56,337 bases of DNA from an uncultured Lachnospiraceae bacterium (GTDB lineage Bacteria > Bacillota > Clostridia > Lachnospirales > Lachnospiraceae), in the NCBI GenBank assembly GCA_902778165.1, contig CACYWQ010000020.1:1-56337 (forward strand). The letters run 5' to 3'. Position 1 is the stretch's first letter. Every line of letters begins with the position of its first letter. Below are positions 41,795 through 51,709 of this stretch, one piece after another. The notes beneath the pieces were generated by a model that was given only the letters and a program-made list of their open reading frames with translations, was not told the DNA's origin and made no database searches. The translations under genes were made by a program, and so were the position numbers.

Positions 41795-42538
41795 ATGAAG
41801 GATGAACAGGCATTTGTAAGAAGAATTGAGGAATTGGTGGCCTTGGGAAGAGAGCAGGGTGGAATGGTGACCACTGATCAGGTTGAAGAGGCTGCCATGG
41901 AGCTGTCACTTCCGGTAAGCGGACTTAATGCCGTATACGACTATCTTAAGGGCAAGAAGATAGGTATCGGTGAGGCTATGGACATAGAAGAGGCTCTTTC
42001 CAAAGAGGACAGAGACTACTTAAAGATATATTTCGAAGAGCTTGCTGAACTTGCCGAATACTCCGAAGGAGAGAAGGAGGCTCACTATATCTCTGCAATG
42101 GCGGGAGATCTTACCGCGCAGACTAAGGTGATAGAGATAATGCTCCCTCAGGTTGTGGATATAGCAAGGCTCTATGCCGATCAGGGTGTCCCTGTTGAAG
42201 ACCTTATCGGAGAAGGTAATGTAGCTCTCTCTGCAGGAGTTACAATGCTTGGAGCATTGGATTCGGGCAAGGAAGTACCGGGTGCACTTGCAGGTATGAT
42301 AATGAATGCAATGGAGCAACTTATAGGTGAAGAGAATGATATCAGAGGCCGTGACGAGAAGATAGTTTCTAAGGTTAACAAGGTGGCGGATGCAGCTGCC
42401 GAACTTGCCGAAGAACTGGGACGTAAGGTTACGATTGATGAACTGGTATCCGAGACTAAGCTAAGCCGTAAGACCATTGAAGATGCAATAAGGTTCTCGG
42501 GCGAGAAGATTGAAGATATAGAAACAGCCAATAATTAA
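41795..42538 (+). CDS. Sigma-70-like protein lacking -10 and -35 recognition regions
   Basis: A 247-residue protein with partial similarity to primary sigma factors. VVDIARLYADQGVPVEDLIGEGNVALSAGV aligns with the region 2.1-2.2 core-binding helix of RpoD ([21 protein letters not shown]; the two motifs are split here for length). KVNKVADAAAELAEELGRKV followed by TIDELVSETKLSRKTIEDAI aligns with region 3. The aromatic/Trp-rich region 2.3-2.4 is replaced by an unrelated Ala/Met-rich helix, and region 4 is absent. It may bind core RNA polymerase without recognising DNA. The true function is unknown. The C-terminal Asn-Asn-stop is encoded by a palindrome. Confidence 0.7.
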   Translation: MKDEQAFVRRIEELVALGREQGGMVTTDQVEEAAMELSLPVSGLNAVYDYLKGKKIGIGEAMDIEEALSKEDRDYLKIYFEELAELAEYSEGEKEAHYISAMAGDLTAQTKVIEIMLPQVVDIARLYADQGVPVEDLIGEGNVALSAGVTMLGALDSGKEVPGALAGMIMNAMEQLIGEENDIRGRDEKIVSKVNKVADAAAELAEELGRKVTIDELVSETKLSRKTIEDAIRFSGEKIEDIETANN

Positions 42539-42558
42539 TTCGTAAATTAATTATTGGC
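42527..42558. terminator. AT-rich palindrome at the end of the sigma-like gene
   Basis: GCCAATAATTAATT (42527-42540) and AATTAATTATTGGC (42545-42558) form a perfect 14-bp inverted repeat with a CGTA centre. The stop codon is inside the 5' arm. The central 24 bases match the palindrome at 36410-36433 except for one base. No T-run follows, so termination is uncertain. Confidence 0.5.
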
Positions 42559-42582: not shown

Positions 42583-42993
42583 ATGGAGAACAAAGATTAT
42601 AAGCACGTCATACAGGATATAACCAACATATATGTAGGCGGCAAATTAAGTTACAAAGAGATGATGGATATGGATGACATACCATTTAAGCTTAAGGCAG
42701 TGTTCGCTCATTACATGCTTAAAGAAGTAAGTGAAGATACCACCTTGGAGAACCATGTCTTCTATATGTCCAAGGATTCCATGTCTTACATGATATATAA
42801 GAAACTTAAGGCAAGATTCCTGCTTAATGTATTCTACGATGACGGGCACGGTAAGAACGAGCCGGGATATCATATCGACGAATTCTTAATAGATGACATT
42901 CTTAATAATGAGGACATAATGGCCAATAAGGATGTCACGTTCTTAACAGAGATAAGGATTTCCAAGTTAAAACTGGCAGGTATTCCTGTATAG
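42583..42993 (+). CDS. Hypothetical protein (136 residues)
   Basis: A soluble acidic protein with no recognised domain, signal or membrane segment. It appears mostly alpha-helical in the first half (YKHVIQDITNIYVGG, FKLKAVFAHYMLKEV), followed by a mixed segment (MSYMIYKKLKARFLLNVFYD). It sits between the sigma-like gene and the hydrogenase-kinase gene on the same strand, with short gaps (44 and 29 bp), so it may be cotranscribed with one or both. Function unknown. Confidence 0.7.
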   Translation: MENKDYKHVIQDITNIYVGGKLSYKEMMDMDDIPFKLKAVFAHYMLKEVSEDTTLENHVFYMSKDSMSYMIYKKLKARFLLNVFYDDGHGKNEPGYHIDEFLIDDILNNEDIMANKDVTFLTEIRISKLKLAGIPV

Positions 42994-43022: not shown

Positions 43023-46000
43023 ATGAGTAACAGCAGTATTGTTTATACAAATGATAACTGCATAGGTTGTAATAAATGTATCAAGGTCTGCAGCGCTATC
43101 GGAGCATGTATTTCCAAGGAAGTAAACGGCAGAGATCGTATCGAAGTCGACGGAAGCAAATGTGTGGCATGCGGAAGTTGTATAGATGTGTGTGTTCACG
43201 GAGCCAGAGAATTTGTGGACGATACCGAGAGATTCTTTGAGGATCTAAGAAACGGTGAGAATATTTCGTTGCTCATTGCGCCTGCATTTAAGGCTAATTA
43301 TCCCGATGAATACGAGAGCGTACTCGGCGGGCTTAAGTCCATGGGCGTTAACAGGATAATCAATGTGTCTTTCGGTGCGGATATTACTACCTGGGGGTAT
43401 TTAAACTATATTAAACAGTATAATTTCCTGGGTGGCATATCTCAGCCCTGCCCGGCCGTTGTTTCGTACATTGAGAGATATATGCCGCAGTTACTGCCTA
43501 AGTTATTTCCGGTTCAGAGTCCGCTTATGTGCGCCGCAATCTACGCGCGTAAGAAGATGGGAGTTACGGATAAATTTGCGTTTATAAGCCCTTGTATTGC
43601 CAAGAAACTGGAGATAGAAGATGAGCATAATAAGGGTCTTGTGCAATATAATGTTACATTCGAGCATCTGATGAAGTATGTGAATGAGCATGGTATTAAG
43701 GGTGATTCAATTCACAGTGAGATTGAGTATGGAATGGGTTCATTCTACCCGACTCCCGGTGGCTTGGCAGAGAACGTCAAGTGGTTCCTTGGCGATGATG
43801 TATATATAAGACAGATAGAAGGTGAACGCCATCTTTATGACTGGATGCATATCAATGCTGACAGGATCAAAGACGGTAGTACACCTTTTGTATTTATTGA
43901 TGCACTTAATTGTGAGAAGGGTTGTATCTGCGGTACGGCGGTCAATCCGGACAAATCCAAGACTGATGATGCGCTGTATGCGCTACTTGATATAAGAGAG
44001 AATTCCAAGAAGTCCTCAAGCGGTGATGCCTGGTCAAGAAATGATACACCTGAGAAACGTTTGGAGAATTTTAATAAGCAATTTAAGGATCTTGATCTTA
44101 ATGACTATATCAGAGGCTACACCGACAGATCGGAAAGCTGTAAATACGTTATTCCCACTGAGGAAGAACTGGAAGTTATATATGATGAACTGAATAAGCT
44201 TACCGAAGAATCAAGGCATATAGATTGTACATGTTGTGGCTATGATAATTGTAGACAGATGGCAATAGCAATCTATAACGGATTTAACCACAAAGAGAAC
44301 TGTATCTATTACGAGAAGACTATGGTGCAGGTTCTTGAGATTGAGAAAGAGATTGCGGAGGAAGCAACGCAGGCTAAGAGTTCTTTCCTTGCCAATATGT
44401 CTCATGAGATCCGTACGCCCATTAATGCGGTTCTTGGCATGAATGAAATGATCCTAAGGGAGTGCGAAGACCCTAATATAACCGCTTATTCTGAGAGTAT
44501 CAGAAGTGCAGGCAACACTTTGCTTGGGCTTGTTAATAATATTCTTGATTTTTCTAAGATAGAAGCCGGCAAGATGGAGATTGAAGAGGTTGAATATGAC
44601 CTTTCATCCGTTATAAACGATCTTGTCAATATGATCCAGTCAAGAGCGGATAATAAAGGCCTGTTGCTTGAACTTGATCTCGATCCCGGTATTCCCAAGG
44701 TTCTGCTCGGTGATGAGATTCGAATTAAGCAGATAATCACCAATCTGCTGACCAATGCAGTTAAGTATACAGAGCAGGGCAGCGTGACATTCAGAATGGG
44801 ATACGAACTGATCGCGGACGATCCTGACTGTGTTTATATAACCGTCTCTGTTAAGGATACGGGTATCGGTATCAAGAAAGAAGATATACACAGACTTTTT
44901 GAGCAGTTTGATCGAATTGAAGAGAAACGTAACCGCAATATCGAAGGCACGGGCCTTGGTATGAATATCACTCAGAGACTTCTTGAAATGATGGAATCCA
45001 CATTAGAGGTTCACAGTGAATACGGTAGCGGTTCGACCTTCGGATTCAGACTTAAGCAGAAGGTAATTAAGTGGGAAGAACTGGGCGATTATGAGGAATC
45101 ATACAAGAGGCTTTTGGGCGAACGTAAGTCGTATCATGAATCGTTTACGGCCCCAGAGGCAGATGTGCTTGTGATCGATGATAATCCCATGAATCTTATG
45201 GTATTTAAGAGCCTGCTTAAGAGAACCCGTGTTAAGATCGACACGGCAAACGACGGTGATGAAGGCCTGATGTTGGCCTATGATAAGAAGTATGACATCA
45301 TATTCTTCGATCATATGATGCCGGGCAAAGACGGAATCGAGACCCTTCATGAGATGAGAAGTCAGGAGAAGAATCCCAACTTATCAACACCCTCAATCTG
45401 CCTTACTGCCAACGCGATCTCCGGCGCAAGAACACAATATATCGAGGCCGGATTTGATGATTATTTAACCAAGCCGATTGATTCGGTCAAGTTAGAAGAG
45501 ATGTTGTGTACATATCTTCCTAAGGAAAAAATCAATGTCATTGAGTCTTCCGCCGTCGAAGGGGTTCAGCCGCCCCATGGCGAACAATCGGATTCCTTAT
45601 TAGAAACGCTTAAATCATATGACGGTATAGATGTTAATCTTGGCATAACAAACAGCGGATCGATTGATGCATATATTCCGTTGCTTAGGATATTCTATGA
45701 TTCTTTAGATGATAAAGCCGCTGAGATCAAGCATTATTATGATGAGGGTGATATTAAGAATTATACCGTCAAAGTACATGCACTTAAGAGTTCGGCTAAG
45801 ATCATCGGTGCTGCAGATTTCGGCGAATTTGCACAAGCTTTGGAGGATGCCGGTAAAGCGGATGACATCGAATACATAAGAGCCAATAATGATGATTTCT
45901 TAAGTCGTCTGTCGGAATTTAAGCAACCTTTATCAGAGATGTTTGGTATTGAAGATGATGATGGGGATGATGGCAGACCTGAAGCCGATTCCATACTTAT

Positions 46001-46181
46001 GGCAGGCGTATATGAAGAGATCAGAATGGCTGCGGATGATATGGATTGTGACAGGCTTGAGAAGATATTTGAGGAAATGAAGAATTACAGGATTCCCTTA
46101 AGTGAGAGAGAATTCTATAACAGTCTTAAAGATGCATCCGATGCATATGATTATGACAGAATAACCCAATTGTTAGTCTGA
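43023..46181 (+). CDS. [FeFe]-hydrogenase-like sensor fused to a hybrid histidine kinase (ferredoxin-H cluster-FeS-HK-REC-HPt)
   Basis: A 1052-residue cytoplasmic protein. Residues 10-60 are a 2[4Fe-4S] ferredoxin (C13, C16, C19, C23; C47, C50, C53, C57). Residues 80-320 are an [FeFe]-hydrogenase H-domain in which all four H-cluster ligands remain: C143 (QPCPAV), C191 (SPCIAKK), C297 and C301 (NCEKGC). The proton-transfer Cys before C143 is replaced by Pro. A PF04060 [4Fe-4S] motif follows (C402, C405, C410, C427). A short coiled coil leads directly into HisKA (His461) and an ATPase domain. Next are a receiver (phospho-acceptor D763), an HPt (His919) and a C-terminal tail. It resembles sensory group C hydrogenases (HydS/HsfB), but with a kinase instead of a PAS domain. 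H2 or redox sensing is inferred. Confidence 0.88.
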   Translation: MSNSSIVYTNDNCIGCNKCIKVCSAIGACISKEVNGRDRIEVDGSKCVACGSCIDVCVHGAREFVDDTERFFEDLRNGENISLLIAPAFKANYPDEYESVLGGLKSMGVNRIINVSFGADITTWGYLNYIKQYNFLGGISQPCPAVVSYIERYMPQLLPKLFPVQSPLMCAAIYARKKMGVTDKFAFISPCIAKKLEIEDEHNKGLVQYNVTFEHLMKYVNEHGIKGDSIHSEIEYGMGSFYPTPGGLAENVKWFLGDDVYIRQIEGERHLYDWMHINADRIKDGSTPFVFIDALNCEKGCICGTAVNPDKSKTDDALYALLDIRENSKKSSSGDAWSRNDTPEKRLENFNKQFKDLDLNDYIRGYTDRSESCKYVIPTEEELEVIYDELNKLTEESRHIDCTCCGYDNCRQMAIAIYNGFNHKENCIYYEKTMVQVLEIEKEIAEEATQAKSSFLANMSHEIRTPINAVLGMNEMILRECEDPNITAYSESIRSAGNTLLGLVNNILDFSKIEAGKMEIEEVEYDLSSVINDLVNMIQSRADNKGLLLELDLDPGIPKVLLGDEIRIKQIITNLLTNAVKYTEQGSVTFRMGYELIADDPDCVYITVSVKDTGIGIKKEDIHRLFEQFDRIEEKRNRNIEGTGLGMNITQRLLEMMESTLEVHSEYGSGSTFGFRLKQKVIKWEELGDYEESYKRLLGERKSYHESFTAPEADVLVIDDNPMNLMVFKSLLKRTRVKIDTANDGDEGLMLAYDKKYDIIFFDHMMPGKDGIETLHEMRSQEKNPNLSTPSICLTANAISGARTQYIEAGFDDYLTKPIDSVKLEEMLCTYLPKEKINVIESSAVEGVQPPHGEQSDSLLETLKSYDGIDVNLGITNSGSIDAYIPLLRIFYDSLDDKAAEIKHYYDEGDIKNYTVKVHALKSSAKIIGAADFGEFAQALEDAGKADDIEYIRANNDDFLSRLSEFKQPLSEMFGIEDDDGDDGRPEADSILMAGVYEEIRMAADDMDCDRLEKIFEEMKNYRIPLSEREFYNSLKDASDAYDYDRITQLLV

Positions 46182-46214: not shown

Positions 46215-48263
46215 ATGAACCAAGCTAAAACAGAGAGATTTATATTATTGTTAATATCCTTGGCCTGTATTGGTTTAACGGGCGAGAGCATACTTATGAA
46301 ATGGGAGTTCTGGGTTCCGCCGATAATCATTATCGGAACCTTGTTCTTGTGGGGAATATCTTTGTCAGAGAAATTCGAATACTCTGTTCGTAAGGTTTTC
46401 TATCTTTTGTTTGCTTTGTTTGCAATGCTTTTCCACGGTGTACATATAACCAGTTTGTTTGATATCGCCCTTGTGACGGTTCTGGTTATGGTCGCTTTCT
46501 CGTATTTTAACGATACATACATGATGAATCTTGCTTTGCTTGAGTACTTTGTTCTGCTCATTATTCAATTTACATTGGCTCACAGAGGCAGAGGTTCAAT
46601 ATTTGATTCACTTAATATTTCAAGGATTATATTGCATATCATCATTGTTCTGCTCATTTATTTCAGTTGCGTTAAGTTGATCAATGACCGACTTGATGCA
46701 GAAATCTCGGATAATGAGAAAAGCGAAAGAATAGAAGCAAACGATGCAGATATGGAAGATTTCTTATCCAATATTTCACATGAACTTCGTACTCCTGTTA
46801 ACGTTGTTAACGGAATGTCTGATCTGCTTATTAAGAGGCAGGTGGGATATGAAGCGGAGGCAATTAAGAATGCCGGAATAAGACTGGCTTATCAGATCGA
46901 GGATATTCAGGATTATACCGAGTGTAAGCGTAATAAGGTTATTCTGGAAGAAGAGGATTATATCAGTACCTCTTTGATAAATGATGTGGTTACGAGCTTC
47001 AGAATGATTGAGAACCAGAAGAGACTTGAACTTGTAGTGGATTTAAGTCCGGCTGTTCCGCTTATGATGCGAGGCGATATCAAGAAATTGCATAAGATAT
47101 TCAGACATCTGCTTGAGAATGCCGTTAAATTCACCAAGAAAGGCGGCATTTATATCAGGATGTTTTCGGAGAAGACCGATTACGGCGTCAATCTGTGCAT
47201 AGAGATGACCGATACCGGAATCGGTATGGACAGAAGGGCAAGACAGTCAATAACCGACGGTATGTTCCAGGTTAATAAGAAACGTAACAGGAGTTCCGGA
47301 GGCATTGGACTCGGATTGTATATAGTATATGGTTTTGCTCACAGGATGGGCGGATTCGTTAAGATTGAAAGTGAGAAAAACAACGGAACCACAATAAGAG
47401 TGACGATTCCTCAGAAAGTTTTAGACGAAACGCCGTGTCTTGCTCTGCATAAGGCATATGACGGTGATGTCATATTCTATGTGAAATCGGATAAATACAG
47501 TACCCCGAGGGTGCGAGATTTCTATAGATATATGGCTTCCAATCTTGCAGCGGGTATTCGTGTTCCGTTATATTCTGCCGAGAGTGTTAAAGAGATTGAA
47601 CGACTCATAAATAAATTGAACGTAAAGGCGGTATTCACCGGACAGGAAGAATATGAGGCTAATCCGGAATATTTTGATGAATTAAGTAAGGGAGAGATTA
47701 CCGTAGGAGTATCATCTTCATCAGGATTTAAACCTAACCCCGGAAGCAATGTGATCGTTATGCCCAAGCCGTTGTACGGATATCCTGCAGTTAAGATAAT
47801 CAATGAAGGACATAATGCCGGAAATATCGAATTTGCCGACAATATTACCAAGCCTGTATTTGACAATATCAGGGCCCTGATCGTCGATGATGAGCCGATG
47901 AACCTTGTTGTTGCCAAAGGCTTATTTAAAGACTATGAGATGGATATAGATACTGCAGACAGCGGCAAGGAGGCTGTTAAGAAATTCCGTAACGGTGACT
48001 ATGATGTTGTATTCATGGATCACATGATGCCTGAGATGGATGGCGTTGAGGCGATGAAGCAGATCAAGAAAAATGCTCAGGAATTAAACAAGAACATAGC
48101 TGTAGTTGCACTTACGGCCAATACGGTATCGGGTGCAAGAGAGATGTTTGCAAGAGAGGGATTTGACGGATTTATCGGCAAACCCATCAATTTAGCCGAA
48201 TTTGAGAGGACAATGATTAAACTGTTTCCTTTAGTTAAATCAGAGAAAGGGGGTGGCAGATAA
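46215..48263 (+). CDS. Membrane hybrid histidine kinase with receiver-like insert
   Basis: A 682-residue kinase. About five membrane helices fill residues 5-155 (FILLLISLACIGLTGES, IIIIGTLFLWGISL, VFYLLFALFAMLFHGV and others) with little extracytoplasmic sequence. HisKA has His189 in SNISHELRTPVN; the ATPase domain has MTDTGIGMD and GIGLGLYIV. Between it and the C-terminal receiver lies a second Rossmann-like segment (about 400-545) that looks like a receiver without the phosphorylation Asp. The true receiver has the DDE pair in LIVDDEPMN and the acceptor D602 (FMDHMMPEMDG). Unlike its two neighbours it has no HPt. Its stop codon shares one base with the start of the next gene (TAATG). Confidence 0.88.
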   Translation: MNQAKTERFILLLISLACIGLTGESILMKWEFWVPPIIIIGTLFLWGISLSEKFEYSVRKVFYLLFALFAMLFHGVHITSLFDIALVTVLVMVAFSYFNDTYMMNLALLEYFVLLIIQFTLAHRGRGSIFDSLNISRIILHIIIVLLIYFSCVKLINDRLDAEISDNEKSERIEANDADMEDFLSNISHELRTPVNVVNGMSDLLIKRQVGYEAEAIKNAGIRLAYQIEDIQDYTECKRNKVILEEEDYISTSLINDVVTSFRMIENQKRLELVVDLSPAVPLMMRGDIKKLHKIFRHLLENAVKFTKKGGIYIRMFSEKTDYGVNLCIEMTDTGIGMDRRARQSITDGMFQVNKKRNRSSGGIGLGLYIVYGFAHRMGGFVKIESEKNNGTTIRVTIPQKVLDETPCLALHKAYDGDVIFYVKSDKYSTPRVRDFYRYMASNLAAGIRVPLYSAESVKEIERLINKLNVKAVFTGQEEYEANPEYFDELSKGEITVGVSSSSGFKPNPGSNVIVMPKPLYGYPAVKIINEGHNAGNIEFADNITKPVFDNIRALIVDDEPMNLVVAKGLFKDYEMDIDTADSGKEAVKKFRNGDYDVVFMDHMMPEMDGVEAMKQIKKNAQELNKNIAVVALTANTVSGAREMFAREGFDGFIGKPINLAEFERTMIKLFPLVKSEKGGGR

Positions 48264-51200
48264 TGAAGAATATTAAGAGGTTTATCAAGGATATTTATGA
48301 TGCTGTCACCGATTATAACAGAGAACTTAATGAGAGAGTTTTCATAATTATGACAATAGTGTCAGTTGTTGCGGCAGTTATTGCGTTGTTCTTTGATATT
48401 ATTACGAATGAGGATTACAGGGAAATAATAATATTGATCGCTACGGTATTTGTTGTTCCGATCATGACATTTACCTGTATGTATAAGAATTTGATTCCGC
48501 TTGCATCCAAGATCATAGTTTTAGTTCTTGTTTTTGTAATACTTCCGAGCCTGTTCTATTTCGGTGGCGGAGTTGAAGGCGGCGGCGTATATTGGATTAT
48601 ATTTGCATATATATATTGCGGCATGGTCTTAACCGGTTTGTGGCGTTCCGTGATCATTGTGTGTATAACGTTGCTTACCGTAGCCATATATTTATTCCAG
48701 TATTATTACCCCGAACGAATTATTGAGCATTCGTACCGAATGAATCTTATTGATTCACTTGTTTCAATAATTGTAGTCGGAGTTGTTTGCTTTGTAATGA
48801 CATGGTTTCAGAACAAGGTGTTTAAGGATGAGAATGAACGTGCCAAGAAAGAAGCCGAGAGAGCAGAGGAATTAACCAGAGCGCAGAATCGATTCTTCTC
48901 AAGTATGAGCCATGAGATTCGTACGCCCATCAACTCTATTTTAGGACTTAATGAACTGATATTAAGAGATCAGAGTACATCGGATGAGATAGTCAAAGAT
49001 GCGGCGGGAATACAGGGCGCAGGTAAGATGTTGCTTTCGCTTATTAATGATATTCTGGATTTCTCCAAAATCGAAGCGGGAAGTATGGATATAGTGCCGG
49101 TTGATTATAAGATGGCAGATCTAATATCCGAGATCGTCAATATGATATGGTTAAGAGCTCATGATAAGGGCCTTAGATTTGATGTTAATATCGATCCTAA
49201 CGTTCCGGCAACATTATACGGTGATGAAGTTCGAATTAAACAGATAATGATCAATCTGCTTAACAATGCGATCAAGTATACCGATGAAGGCGTAATCGAA
49301 CTTAATGTTGAATGTGATGAAATAGATGATGATAATGTGATGCTTAATATCTCCGTAAGTGATACTGGAATGGGTATTAAGAAAGAAGTGATCCCGTATT
49401 TGTTTGATGCCTTCAAACGTGTGGATCAGGAGAAGAATCGTCGCATAGAAGGAACGGGCCTTGGTTTAAGTATAGTTAAGCAGCTTACCGAGCTGATGGG
49501 CGGTACAATAAATGTCAATAGTGTATACGGTGAGGGCTCTTTATTTACGGCTATGATCAAACAGGGCGTAACCGACCGTACTGCCATAGGAGAACTTAAT
49601 ATCCACAATCAGACATCTGCCGAAAGAAATGTATATAAGGCAAGTTTCAAAGCGCCGGATGCAAGAGTGCTTATAGTGGATGACAATGAGATGAATCTCG
49701 AGGTCGAGTACAGATTATTGATTGATACGGATCTTACCATCGATAAGGCACTAAGCGGTAAGGAAGCACTTGATATGACTGTTAAGCATCGATATGATGC
49801 AATTCTTATGGATCATCTTATGCCTGAAATGGACGGTATTGAATGTCTCAGAGCAATCAGAACGCAGTCGGGCGGACTTAACAGAGCAACTCCGGTGATC
49901 GTTCTTACAGCCAATGCAGGAAGCGCAAACAGAGAATTATATAACAGGTCCGGATTTGATGATTATCTGGTGAAACCTGTTGCCGGAGATGCGCTTGAGG
50001 CAGTCCTTGTTAAACATATATCATCGGATAAGCTTATATTAAGTGATAAATTGCTTAATATGCGTGAGGATATTAATGCATCGGCGGGATATTCAAGCAA
50101 AGTGCCGGTTATGGTAACAACAAGCAGTGTCAGCGATATCCCGAATTCAACGATCAGGAAATTGAGATTACGTATCATTCCTGCGGTTATCCGTACAGAA
50201 GAAGGTGTGTTCAAGGACGGCGTTCAAATGGATGCATATGAGCTTATCAAGTATATTGAGACAGGCAGGGATGCCATATCTTCATGTGCCGATGAAGCAG
50301 CATATACAGAGTTCTTTGCAGATTCCATTAAAAGGGCGCATCATCTGATACATATTGCTCTGACCTCAAGTATGAGTGATGACTACAAGATGGCATCCGA
50401 GGCTTCGAAATCATTTGACAATGTTACCGTAATCAATTCGGGATGCCTATCATCGGCTGCAGGAATTCTTACATTAATTGCATATAAATTGGCTCAACAG
50501 AATCTGCCGGTACAGGATATTGTTGCAGAACTTGAGAGGATCAAACCCAGATTAAGATGCAGTTTCGTTGTTGATACCACGGAATACATGGCTAAGAAGG
50601 GGTTTGTCAGCCCGTTTATCAATGGGGCAGCCAAGAGTATCGGACTTCATCCCTGCATCAGCTTCAGAGATGATAGGTCAATTGTAGGTCCAGTATGGAT
50701 AGGCAGGACTAAGAGAGCATATAAGAAGTATATCAATCAGGCTTTTCCCGTGGACATTATACCTGATCCTGATGTTGTGTTTGTTACATATGTTGATGTT
50801 CCGATGGATACACTTCTTTGGATCAAGGAAGAGATCAGCAAGCATGCTTATTTTGAACATGTTGTGTTCAAACAGGCGTCAGCGGCCATATCATCCAACT
50901 GCGGTCCCGGAACTTTCGGCATTTTGTATTTTGTTAAGTCCAATAAGTCTTACAATATAGGATCCTATATTGTAAACGATTATGAGGACTCCGACAAAGA
51001 TGATGATGAGGATTCGTGGAATGACTTTATATCACCTACGGATATTGAAGAGATTGAAGAACCTTCGGATAAAACCGATGACTTAAGGGCCATTGAGGGA
51101 TATGAGAGTGATGATGCAGCTTATGAGAATATTAGAGGTATAGATTATAATACGGCCTTAACAAACAGCGGATCTTTGAAGATATTTAAGGGTGTGCTTA

Positions 51201-51709
51201 TGATATTTAATGATTCGATTCCGGAGAAATCAAATGAATTAGCCGAATTATATAATAAGCAGGACTGGGAGAACTATACGATTAAAGTTCATGCGCTTAA
51301 GAGTTCGGCTAAGATTATCGGGGCCGTCAAACTTGCGGAAGATGCTCAATTGCTTGAAAATGCAGGTAAATCGGGTGATGTTGAATATATCAGAACACAT
51401 CACGATAATCTTATGAGTGAATATCTTAAATATAGAGACTATTTATCCGATGTGATTAAATCTGAGGATTCTTTGACAGACAAACAATCGGATAACAGAC
51501 CCGTTGCTGATGAATACTTATTAAACAGTATGTATGACGGCCTTAAGGAAGCTGCCGATAATATGGATTGCGATACAATCGAGGATATAATCGGTGAACT
51601 TAAGGATTACAGGATTACAGGTGATGATAAGAACCTATTTGATGAAATTCGTGTTAAAGCCGATAACTTGGATTATGACGGCATTCTGGAATTATTAAAC
51701 AATCGATGA
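48263..51709 (+). CDS. Membrane hybrid histidine kinase fused to a DegV (fatty-acid-binding) domain and HPt
   Basis: A 1148-residue kinase. Residues 25-185 hold about six membrane helices. HisKA has His217 (SSMSHEIRTPIN), the ATPase domain follows, and a receiver has D517 (LMDHLMPEMDG). Residues about 614-902 are a DegV/FakB-type domain: VPVMVTTSSVSDIPNS, LRIIPAVI, GVFKDGVQMDAYELI, VINSGCLSS, SFVVDTTEYMAKKGFVSP and NCGPGTFGILYF follow the family order. The ligand-pocket motifs diverge (SGT becomes SDD, His before GPG becomes Asn). An HPt (His1010 in VHALKSSAKIIGA) and a tail close the protein. DegV proteins bind fatty acids for the Fak kinase system, so lipid-responsive signalling is inferred. 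Confidence 0.87.
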   Translation: MKNIKRFIKDIYDAVTDYNRELNERVFIIMTIVSVVAAVIALFFDIITNEDYREIIILIATVFVVPIMTFTCMYKNLIPLASKIIVLVLVFVILPSLFYFGGGVEGGGVYWIIFAYIYCGMVLTGLWRSVIIVCITLLTVAIYLFQYYYPERIIEHSYRMNLIDSLVSIIVVGVVCFVMTWFQNKVFKDENERAKKEAERAEELTRAQNRFFSSMSHEIRTPINSILGLNELILRDQSTSDEIVKDAAGIQGAGKMLLSLINDILDFSKIEAGSMDIVPVDYKMADLISEIVNMIWLRAHDKGLRFDVNIDPNVPATLYGDEVRIKQIMINLLNNAIKYTDEGVIELNVECDEIDDDNVMLNISVSDTGMGIKKEVIPYLFDAFKRVDQEKNRRIEGTGLGLSIVKQLTELMGGTINVNSVYGEGSLFTAMIKQGVTDRTAIGELNIHNQTSAERNVYKASFKAPDARVLIVDDNEMNLEVEYRLLIDTDLTIDKALSGKEALDMTVKHRYDAILMDHLMPEMDGIECLRAIRTQSGGLNRATPVIVLTANAGSANRELYNRSGFDDYLVKPVAGDALEAVLVKHISSDKLILSDKLLNMREDINASAGYSSKVPVMVTTSSVSDIPNSTIRKLRLRIIPAVIRTEEGVFKDGVQMDAYELIKYIETGRDAISSCADEAAYTEFFADSIKRAHHLIHIALTSSMSDDYKMASEASKSFDNVTVINSGCLSSAAGILTLIAYKLAQQNLPVQDIVAELERIKPRLRCSFVVDTTEYMAKKGFVSPFINGAAKSIGLHPCISFRDDRSIVGPVWIGRTKRAYKKYINQAFPVDIIPDPDVVFVTYVDVPMDTLLWIKEEISKHAYFEHVVFKQASAAISSNCGPGTFGILYFVKSNKSYNIGSYIVNDYEDSDKDDDEDSWNDFISPTDIEEIEEPSDKTDDLRAIEGYESDDAAYENIRGIDYNTALTNSGSLKIFKGVLMIFNDSIPEKSNELAELYNKQDWENYTIKVHALKSSAKIIGAVKLAEDAQLLENAGKSGDVEYIRTHHDNLMSEYLKYRDYLSDVIKSEDSLTDKQSDNRPVADEYLLNSMYDGLKEAADNMDCDTIEDIIGELKDYRITGDDKNLFDEIRVKADNLDYDGILELLNNR

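Follow-up and report, generated by a model that had tools for sequence, protein, structure and literature searches.

What does a histidine kinase respond to when its sensory head is built like an [FeFe]-hydrogenase, and by what route does the signal leave that head? Published work on sensory [FeFe]-hydrogenases has yet to answer either question. The locus considered here, on a contig of an uncultured Lachnospiraceae bacterium (56,337 nucleotides, the whole of which we call the window), joins such a head to a kinase, and the first-pass annotation held that an H-cluster in this protein reads H2 or redox state and passes it straight into a phosphorelay.

Domain architecture and predicted fold of the kinase

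The architecture of the open reading frame is certain: ferredoxin, Fe_hyd_lg_C, FeS, HisKA, HATPase, receiver and HPt domains follow one another (Table 1), with Fe_hyd_lg_C scoring 102.3 bits on the 1052-residue protein against a cut-off of 22.1 and the PF04060 FeS match sitting exactly on its cut-off (23 of 23). Pfam thus confirms the domain order proposed in the first-pass annotation, and every residue named there was read back correctly by script, namely the four H-cluster ligands C143, C191, C297 and C301, the C-terminal cysteines C402, C405, C410 and C427, and H461, D763 and H919. The ligands lie in the motifs QPC143PA (L1), SPC191IAK194K (L2) and DALNC297EKGC301 (L3), where P142, S189 and L295 occupy the positions of C299, M353 and M497; the proton-relay Cys299 is absent from this H-domain, with Pro142 in its place, and the replacements claimed earlier for the proton-transfer cysteine and for the L2 and L3 methionines are all seen. 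Since the 16 cluster cysteines (C13, C16, C19, C23, C47, C50, C53, C57, C143, C191, C297, C301, C402, C405, C410 and C427), like K194, do not vary across 48 aligned sequences, the window protein among them, the layout of the head is not a product of chance. Behind the head, the HisKA, HATPase, receiver and HPt domains are all present with the phosphorylatable residues, which makes the protein a hybrid phosphorelay kinase, and no PAS family matched it in Pfam at E ≤ 0.01.

Table 1. Features of the kinase and of its neighbors in the window
Feature	Coordinates	Strand	Evidence and remarks
Hybrid histidine kinase headed by an [FeFe]-hydrogenase-like sensor	43023..46181	+	ATG start, 1052 aa; ORF list, Pfam, residue read-back
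N-terminal 2[4Fe-4S] ferredoxin, C13/16/19/23 and C47/50/53/57	43023..43217	+	Fer4, Fer4_7 above cut-off
H-domain, residues 83-304	43269..43934	+	PF02906, fold match, conservation
C-terminal cluster motif Cx2Cx4Cx16C, C402/405/410/427	44220..44309	+	PF04060, residues 400-429
Predicted single continuous helix 428-480, FeS domain to HisKA helix	44304..44462	+	AlphaFold
HisKA, phospho-acceptor His461	44373..44570	+	PF00512, residues 451-516
HATPase_c, residues 563-679	44709..45059	+	PF02518; N, G1 and G2 boxes NLLTNAVKYT, DTGIGI, GTGLGM by eye
Receiver domain, Asp763	45165..45506	+	PF00072 Response_reg, residues 715-828
HPt domain, His919	45681..45872	+	PF01627, residues 887-950
Neighboring hybrid kinase, HisKA-HATPase-REC	46215..48263	+	Pfam; starts 34 bases past kinase stop
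Second neighboring hybrid kinase, HisKA-HATPase-REC-DegV-HPt	48263..51709	+	Pfam
Receiver protein, 260 aa	53309..54091	+	PF00072

Structure prediction, which had been proposed as a check alongside the first-pass annotation, returned a hydrogenase fold: all 50 PDB matches listed for an AlphaFold model of residues 1-530 are [FeFe]-hydrogenases (best E 8.8e-19). The model was built from the 48 aligned sequences and replaces an earlier one from 18 sequences with weak confidence at L3; its mean pLDDT is 90.1 over residues 1-530, with ten-residue blocks at 89-97 across L1, L2 and L3, and fold and confidence agree with a predicted placement of the four cysteines in one pocket. The modeled helix 428-480 is unbroken from just past the last FeS cysteine through His461. 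Together, Pfam, the spacing described below and the model support the earlier proposal that a hydrogenase-derived module feeds a full phosphorelay kinase through a short helix and without a PAS domain.

Relatives, gene neighborhood and published counterparts

The module occurs widely, with at least 575 relatives in genomes of named species, and the best 80 of these loci were kept. Among these 80, the chemotaxis hairpin is found in 41 and the HisKA motif in 25, so the kinase layout is not unique; the rest comprise forms of chemotaxis length without a motif call (8), GGDEF forms (2), possible EAL forms (2), one locus interrupted by a stop (L176) and one cut by a contig end (L127). The module occurs at E ≤ 1e-70 in 84 of 397 genomes of the family, as read from the search table, with chemotaxis, GGDEF-EAL or kinase outputs assigned by motifs and Pfam. 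Three copies are present in the host genome, i.e., the window kinase, a GGDEF-EAL form (L049) and a chemotaxis form that ends on two contigs, one bearing the H-domain (L048) and the other FeS and MCPsignal (L047), which we infer to be the two ends of one gene. In a single FastTree run (245 columns, 117 sequences, outputs labeled by motif), the module groups in a clade of its own, separate from PAS-type proteins some 580 aa long (Pfam found PAS in all four of the comparison proteins, L103-L106), and kinase outputs are scattered over several places within it.

In the window kinase, 34 residues separate the last FeS cysteine from His461, and this distance to the phospho-His is likewise 34 in 28 of 31 kinase forms, the remainder having 27, 31 and 38 (counted on forms with HisKA within 90 residues, longer linkers being left out and three duplicate sequences removed). 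In the chemotaxis forms, where the count runs to a set position in the hairpin, 83 of 86 have 107, 111 or 114 residues, and three, at 113, break the coiled-coil pattern. Steps of 4, 7 and 11 fit a coiled coil, and because the sequences are related this is a consistency check and not a test.

The kinase gene and its three neighbors in Table 1 belong to a tightly packed series of genes on one strand. Taking the four best pieces per locus at the 25 kinase loci, the 46215..48263 kinase has a match of at least 50% identity in seven, the 48263..51709 kinase one of at least 45% in eight and the receiver protein one in nine, and 17 of the loci match at least one of the three in flanking sequence of up to 4 kb; the kinase matches can be paralogs. 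The receiver protein is likely a phosphorelay partner. In the second neighboring kinase, the DegV domain is lodged between receiver and HPt. Upstream, a 14-pair AT-rich hairpin (42527-42558) lies between a sigma-like gene and ORF 42583-42993, for which no Pfam match was found, and a promoter scan did no better than shuffles (39 versus 38.8).

Kinase-linked sensory hydrogenases are a known kind, since HydDB and a study of Hydrogenedentota already list them. HydDB carries group C1 histidine kinase-linked and group C2 chemotactic [FeFe]-hydrogenases, both as putative (PMC5037454). The proteins considered here likewise combine a sensory-type [FeFe] H-domain with a kinase or chemotaxis output, and the window kinase has the domain content of C1, a sensory H-domain linked to a histidine kinase; however, one H-domain clade bears kinase, chemotaxis and GGDEF-EAL outputs here, so names based on output would split it. 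The Hydrogenedentota proteins, of groups C1 and C3, similarly fuse a sensory-type hydrogenase to HATPase or histidine kinase domains, but their authors hardly found H-cluster motifs in the C1 forms, which are kept here, and the available portions of the study do not mention a receiver and HPt (PMC11406978).

Two characterized proteins offer a closer comparison. TmHydS of Thermotoga maritima (group C) shares the ferredoxin, the H-domain, the C-terminal four-Cys cluster and the replacement of C299, M353 and M497, but it carries PAS and has Gly and Ser at M353 and M497, unlike the PAS-free window kinase with Ser and Leu (PMC10055695, PMC8163306); Pro at the C299 position is reported for roughly 10% of the sensory sequences in HydDB (PMC10055695). 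TamHydS of Thermoanaerobacter mathranii (group D) shares Ser at M353, Leu at M497, the Cx2Cx4Cx16C motif and the lack of PAS, although it is described without a fused kinase in the available portions of PMC8163306, PMC10407848, PMC11803613 and PMC13104023. Group D is defined by Ser or Thr at M353 (PMC8163306), and Ser189 is found there in the window kinase. Membership in group D, at first favored on the Ser/Leu pair, was dropped on Leu248: the Glu252 relay is reported as exclusive to group D, and in an alignment set against the primer text of PMC10407848 neither Glu252 nor Glu289 is present in the kinase, which has Leu248 and Asp293. The open-licence literature, in its available portions, yielded no characterized protein arranged exactly like this kinase, nor any account of sensory hydrogenases from genomes lacking HydEFG; what is new here is a full phosphorelay with no PAS domain and a maturase-less host.

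Maturases and hydrogenases in the host and its relatives

The absence of HydEFG had been named beforehand as an outcome that would speak against the first-pass annotation, and the host genome (95% complete) gave no HydG at E ≤ 0.001, no HydF over cut-off and no HydE at E ≤ 1e-30 in searches that matched all three in T. maritima. Neither HydG nor HydE was found in a sister genome of the same genus (G213, 99% complete). The claim that H2 is read by an H-cluster is therefore not supported as stated.

Across the family, 80 of the 84 sensor-bearing genomes were tested for all three maturases: 36 have all, eight have some and 36 have none over cut-off, the last including 26 genomes that are at least 95% complete, with HydE found in 42 of the 80. 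Sorted by their best Fe_hyd_lg_C score, the maturase-less genomes comprise 15 with a CpI-like protein, 15 with only group-B-like and six with only weak-scoring, sensor-type proteins (four of the six at least 98% complete), versus 20, 16 and none among the genomes with all three. Of 62 genome pairs within a genus, 56 are alike in having or lacking HydG, where about 31 discordant pairs would be expected at random, so its absence is inherited and not an assembly gap. HydE is over cut-off in 19 of the 41 genomes behind the named loci; it was not over cut-off in Lachnospiraceae bacterium AB2028 or in Roseburia hominis An869, the latter not counted as maturase-less, with HydF present in G122.

The sensors themselves look functional where maturases are missing, as ligands and lysine are kept despite divergence: the sensors examined come from 32 of the 36 genomes without maturases, and the 30 main-clade ones, from 27 genomes, retain the four H-domain cysteines, the four C-terminal cysteines and K194 at a mean pairwise identity of 0.62. 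K194 is the equivalent of Lys358, which contacts the di-iron site, and is kept in 75 of 78 alignment rows. Among divergent maturase-less members, L061 has Arg at this position and L062 has Met there together with the loss of C297; the lysine is also lost in L063, from a genome with all three maturases. In L062 (2852-5470, G249), C297 is replaced by Ser, and its genome has only sensor-type Fe_hyd proteins, with no maturases found.

Catalytic-type hydrogenases share the pattern. Of the 397 family genomes searched, 367 have an Fe_hyd_lg_C match, and a HydG hit exceeds the cut-off in 130 of 253 whose best score is CpI-like, 41 of 103 with only group-B-like and 2 of 11 with only weaker sensor-type proteins; carrying a sensor is statistically independent of having HydG (odds ratio 0.85, p 0.54), scored per genome on up to three HydG and four sensor candidates in searches that both under-call. 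Among 57 CpI-like, HydG-negative genomes at least 97% complete, HydE is over cut-off in 21 and not in 36. CpI-like genes in maturase-less genomes (all three absent, or HydE and HydG absent, with HydF covered in half) have the full ligand motif in 13 of 30 typed and Ser at one ligand in 17, with two further genes divided between the two forms, versus 19 and 6 of 25 where all three maturases occur together. The host's own HydA (L001 814-2316, G000:C22) belongs to group B1 (TIGR04105, 611 bits against a cut-off of 450) with full motifs. The motif TSCSPGW, with Ser at the cluster ligand, is common among the CpI-like genes L237-L296; an Stn-type transhydrogenase, considered as the source of these variants, is not borne out in the available portions of PMC10482914. 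Because catalytic-type hydrogenases also occur in maturase-less relatives, the absence of maturases is not decisive, and we rejected it as proof of a missing H-cluster. Either HydEFG is dispensable for more than the sensors or another route exists.

Candidate signals and their path to the kinase

We slightly favor an iron-sulfur redox input over H2 sensing: at a little under an even chance, the window protein is a cytosolic hybrid kinase whose hydrogenase-derived iron-sulfur module reads redox poise, not H2. Electrons from a low-potential cell pool would reach the N-terminal ferredoxin domain, the state of a cubane in the former H-cluster pocket would shift the C-terminal, presumably [4Fe-4S], domain, and this domain would rotate or tighten the continuous helix into HisKA and so set autophosphorylation at His461. 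Phosphate would then pass from His461 to Asp763, to His919 and on to the neighboring receivers and kinases, in what we take to be that direction. In the host, a di-iron site made by HydEFG is most likely lacking from the pocket, in which case the signal would be redox poise rather than H2 binding.

The main competitor, a true H2 sensor in which H2 or its redox effect drives the kinase through a complete H-cluster, made through an unrecognized maturation route or by hydEFG genes missed in the assembly, is a doubtful but sizable possibility. For redox poise and against H2 count the failure to find HydE, HydF or HydG in the host and in 36 of the 80 sensor genomes, an absence consistent within genera, and the six genomes left with sensor-type proteins only, versus none where all three maturases occur. 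The pocket points the same way in that neither published proton relay is present, the group A entry C299 aligning with Pro142 and the group D Glu252 with Leu248. Main-clade ligands kept without maturases, the spacing steps and the predicted unbroken helix would likewise suit a redox relay. On the other side, all four ligands are conserved together with K194, a residue of no obvious use to a bare cubane. Ser189 and Leu295 equal the pocket residues reported for TamHydS, a protein that accepts the di-iron site and is reactive toward H2 (PMC8163306). The C-terminal cluster of TamHydS is reported not to be reduced under H2 (PMC13104023). Further, 36 of the 80 sensor genomes have all of HydEFG, HydE reaches 42, and sensor and HydG are distributed independently. 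Full-ligand catalytic-type hydrogenases in maturase-less relatives, including the host's group B1 enzyme, possibly hint at another maturation route. The spacing counts, coming from related sequences with three of 86 chemotaxis forms out of step, would also weigh against the redox reading.

It is improbable that the open iron site of the pocket cubane instead binds CO, NO, O2 or a metabolite and makes the kinase a gas or stress sensor: the pocket is conserved without a known proton relay and most members have an extra cysteine, Cys170, but all four cubane ligands are Cys and Cys170 is not invariant in the maturase-less sensors.

Kinase partners probably work together, given that the kinase forms L050, L107, L113 and L126 keep HisKA, receiver and HPt without HATPase_c by Pfam, and that in L109 and L122 the hydrogenase head is fused C-terminal to a complete kinase that matches dCache_1 (below cut-off in L122), as it is, by reading only, to a Cache-type hybrid kinase in L121, these three fused proteins spanning 1500-1932 aa. 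The same forms could suggest that the head is mainly a dimerizing scaffold in a multi-kinase complex whose adjoining membrane kinases do the sensing, which is quite unlikely in view of the 16 invariant cluster cysteines in the 48 aligned sequences and of the same module alone driving chemotaxis and GGDEF-EAL outputs.

The persistence of these sensors where HydEFG is not found raises the question of their being H2 sensors in the first place, or else of a second route to the H-cluster. Natural fusions set a measurable kinase directly after the C-terminal cluster, and the sensing question is therefore assayable by phosphorylation. We tentatively posit, with slightly less than even confidence, that the "sensory hydrogenases" of gut Lachnospiraceae may be maturase-free modular redox receivers, which use helix register to reach outputs in chemotaxis, cyclic-di-GMP and phosphorelay signaling and have been kept over genus-level time, or else that they carry an H-cluster from an undiscovered pathway.
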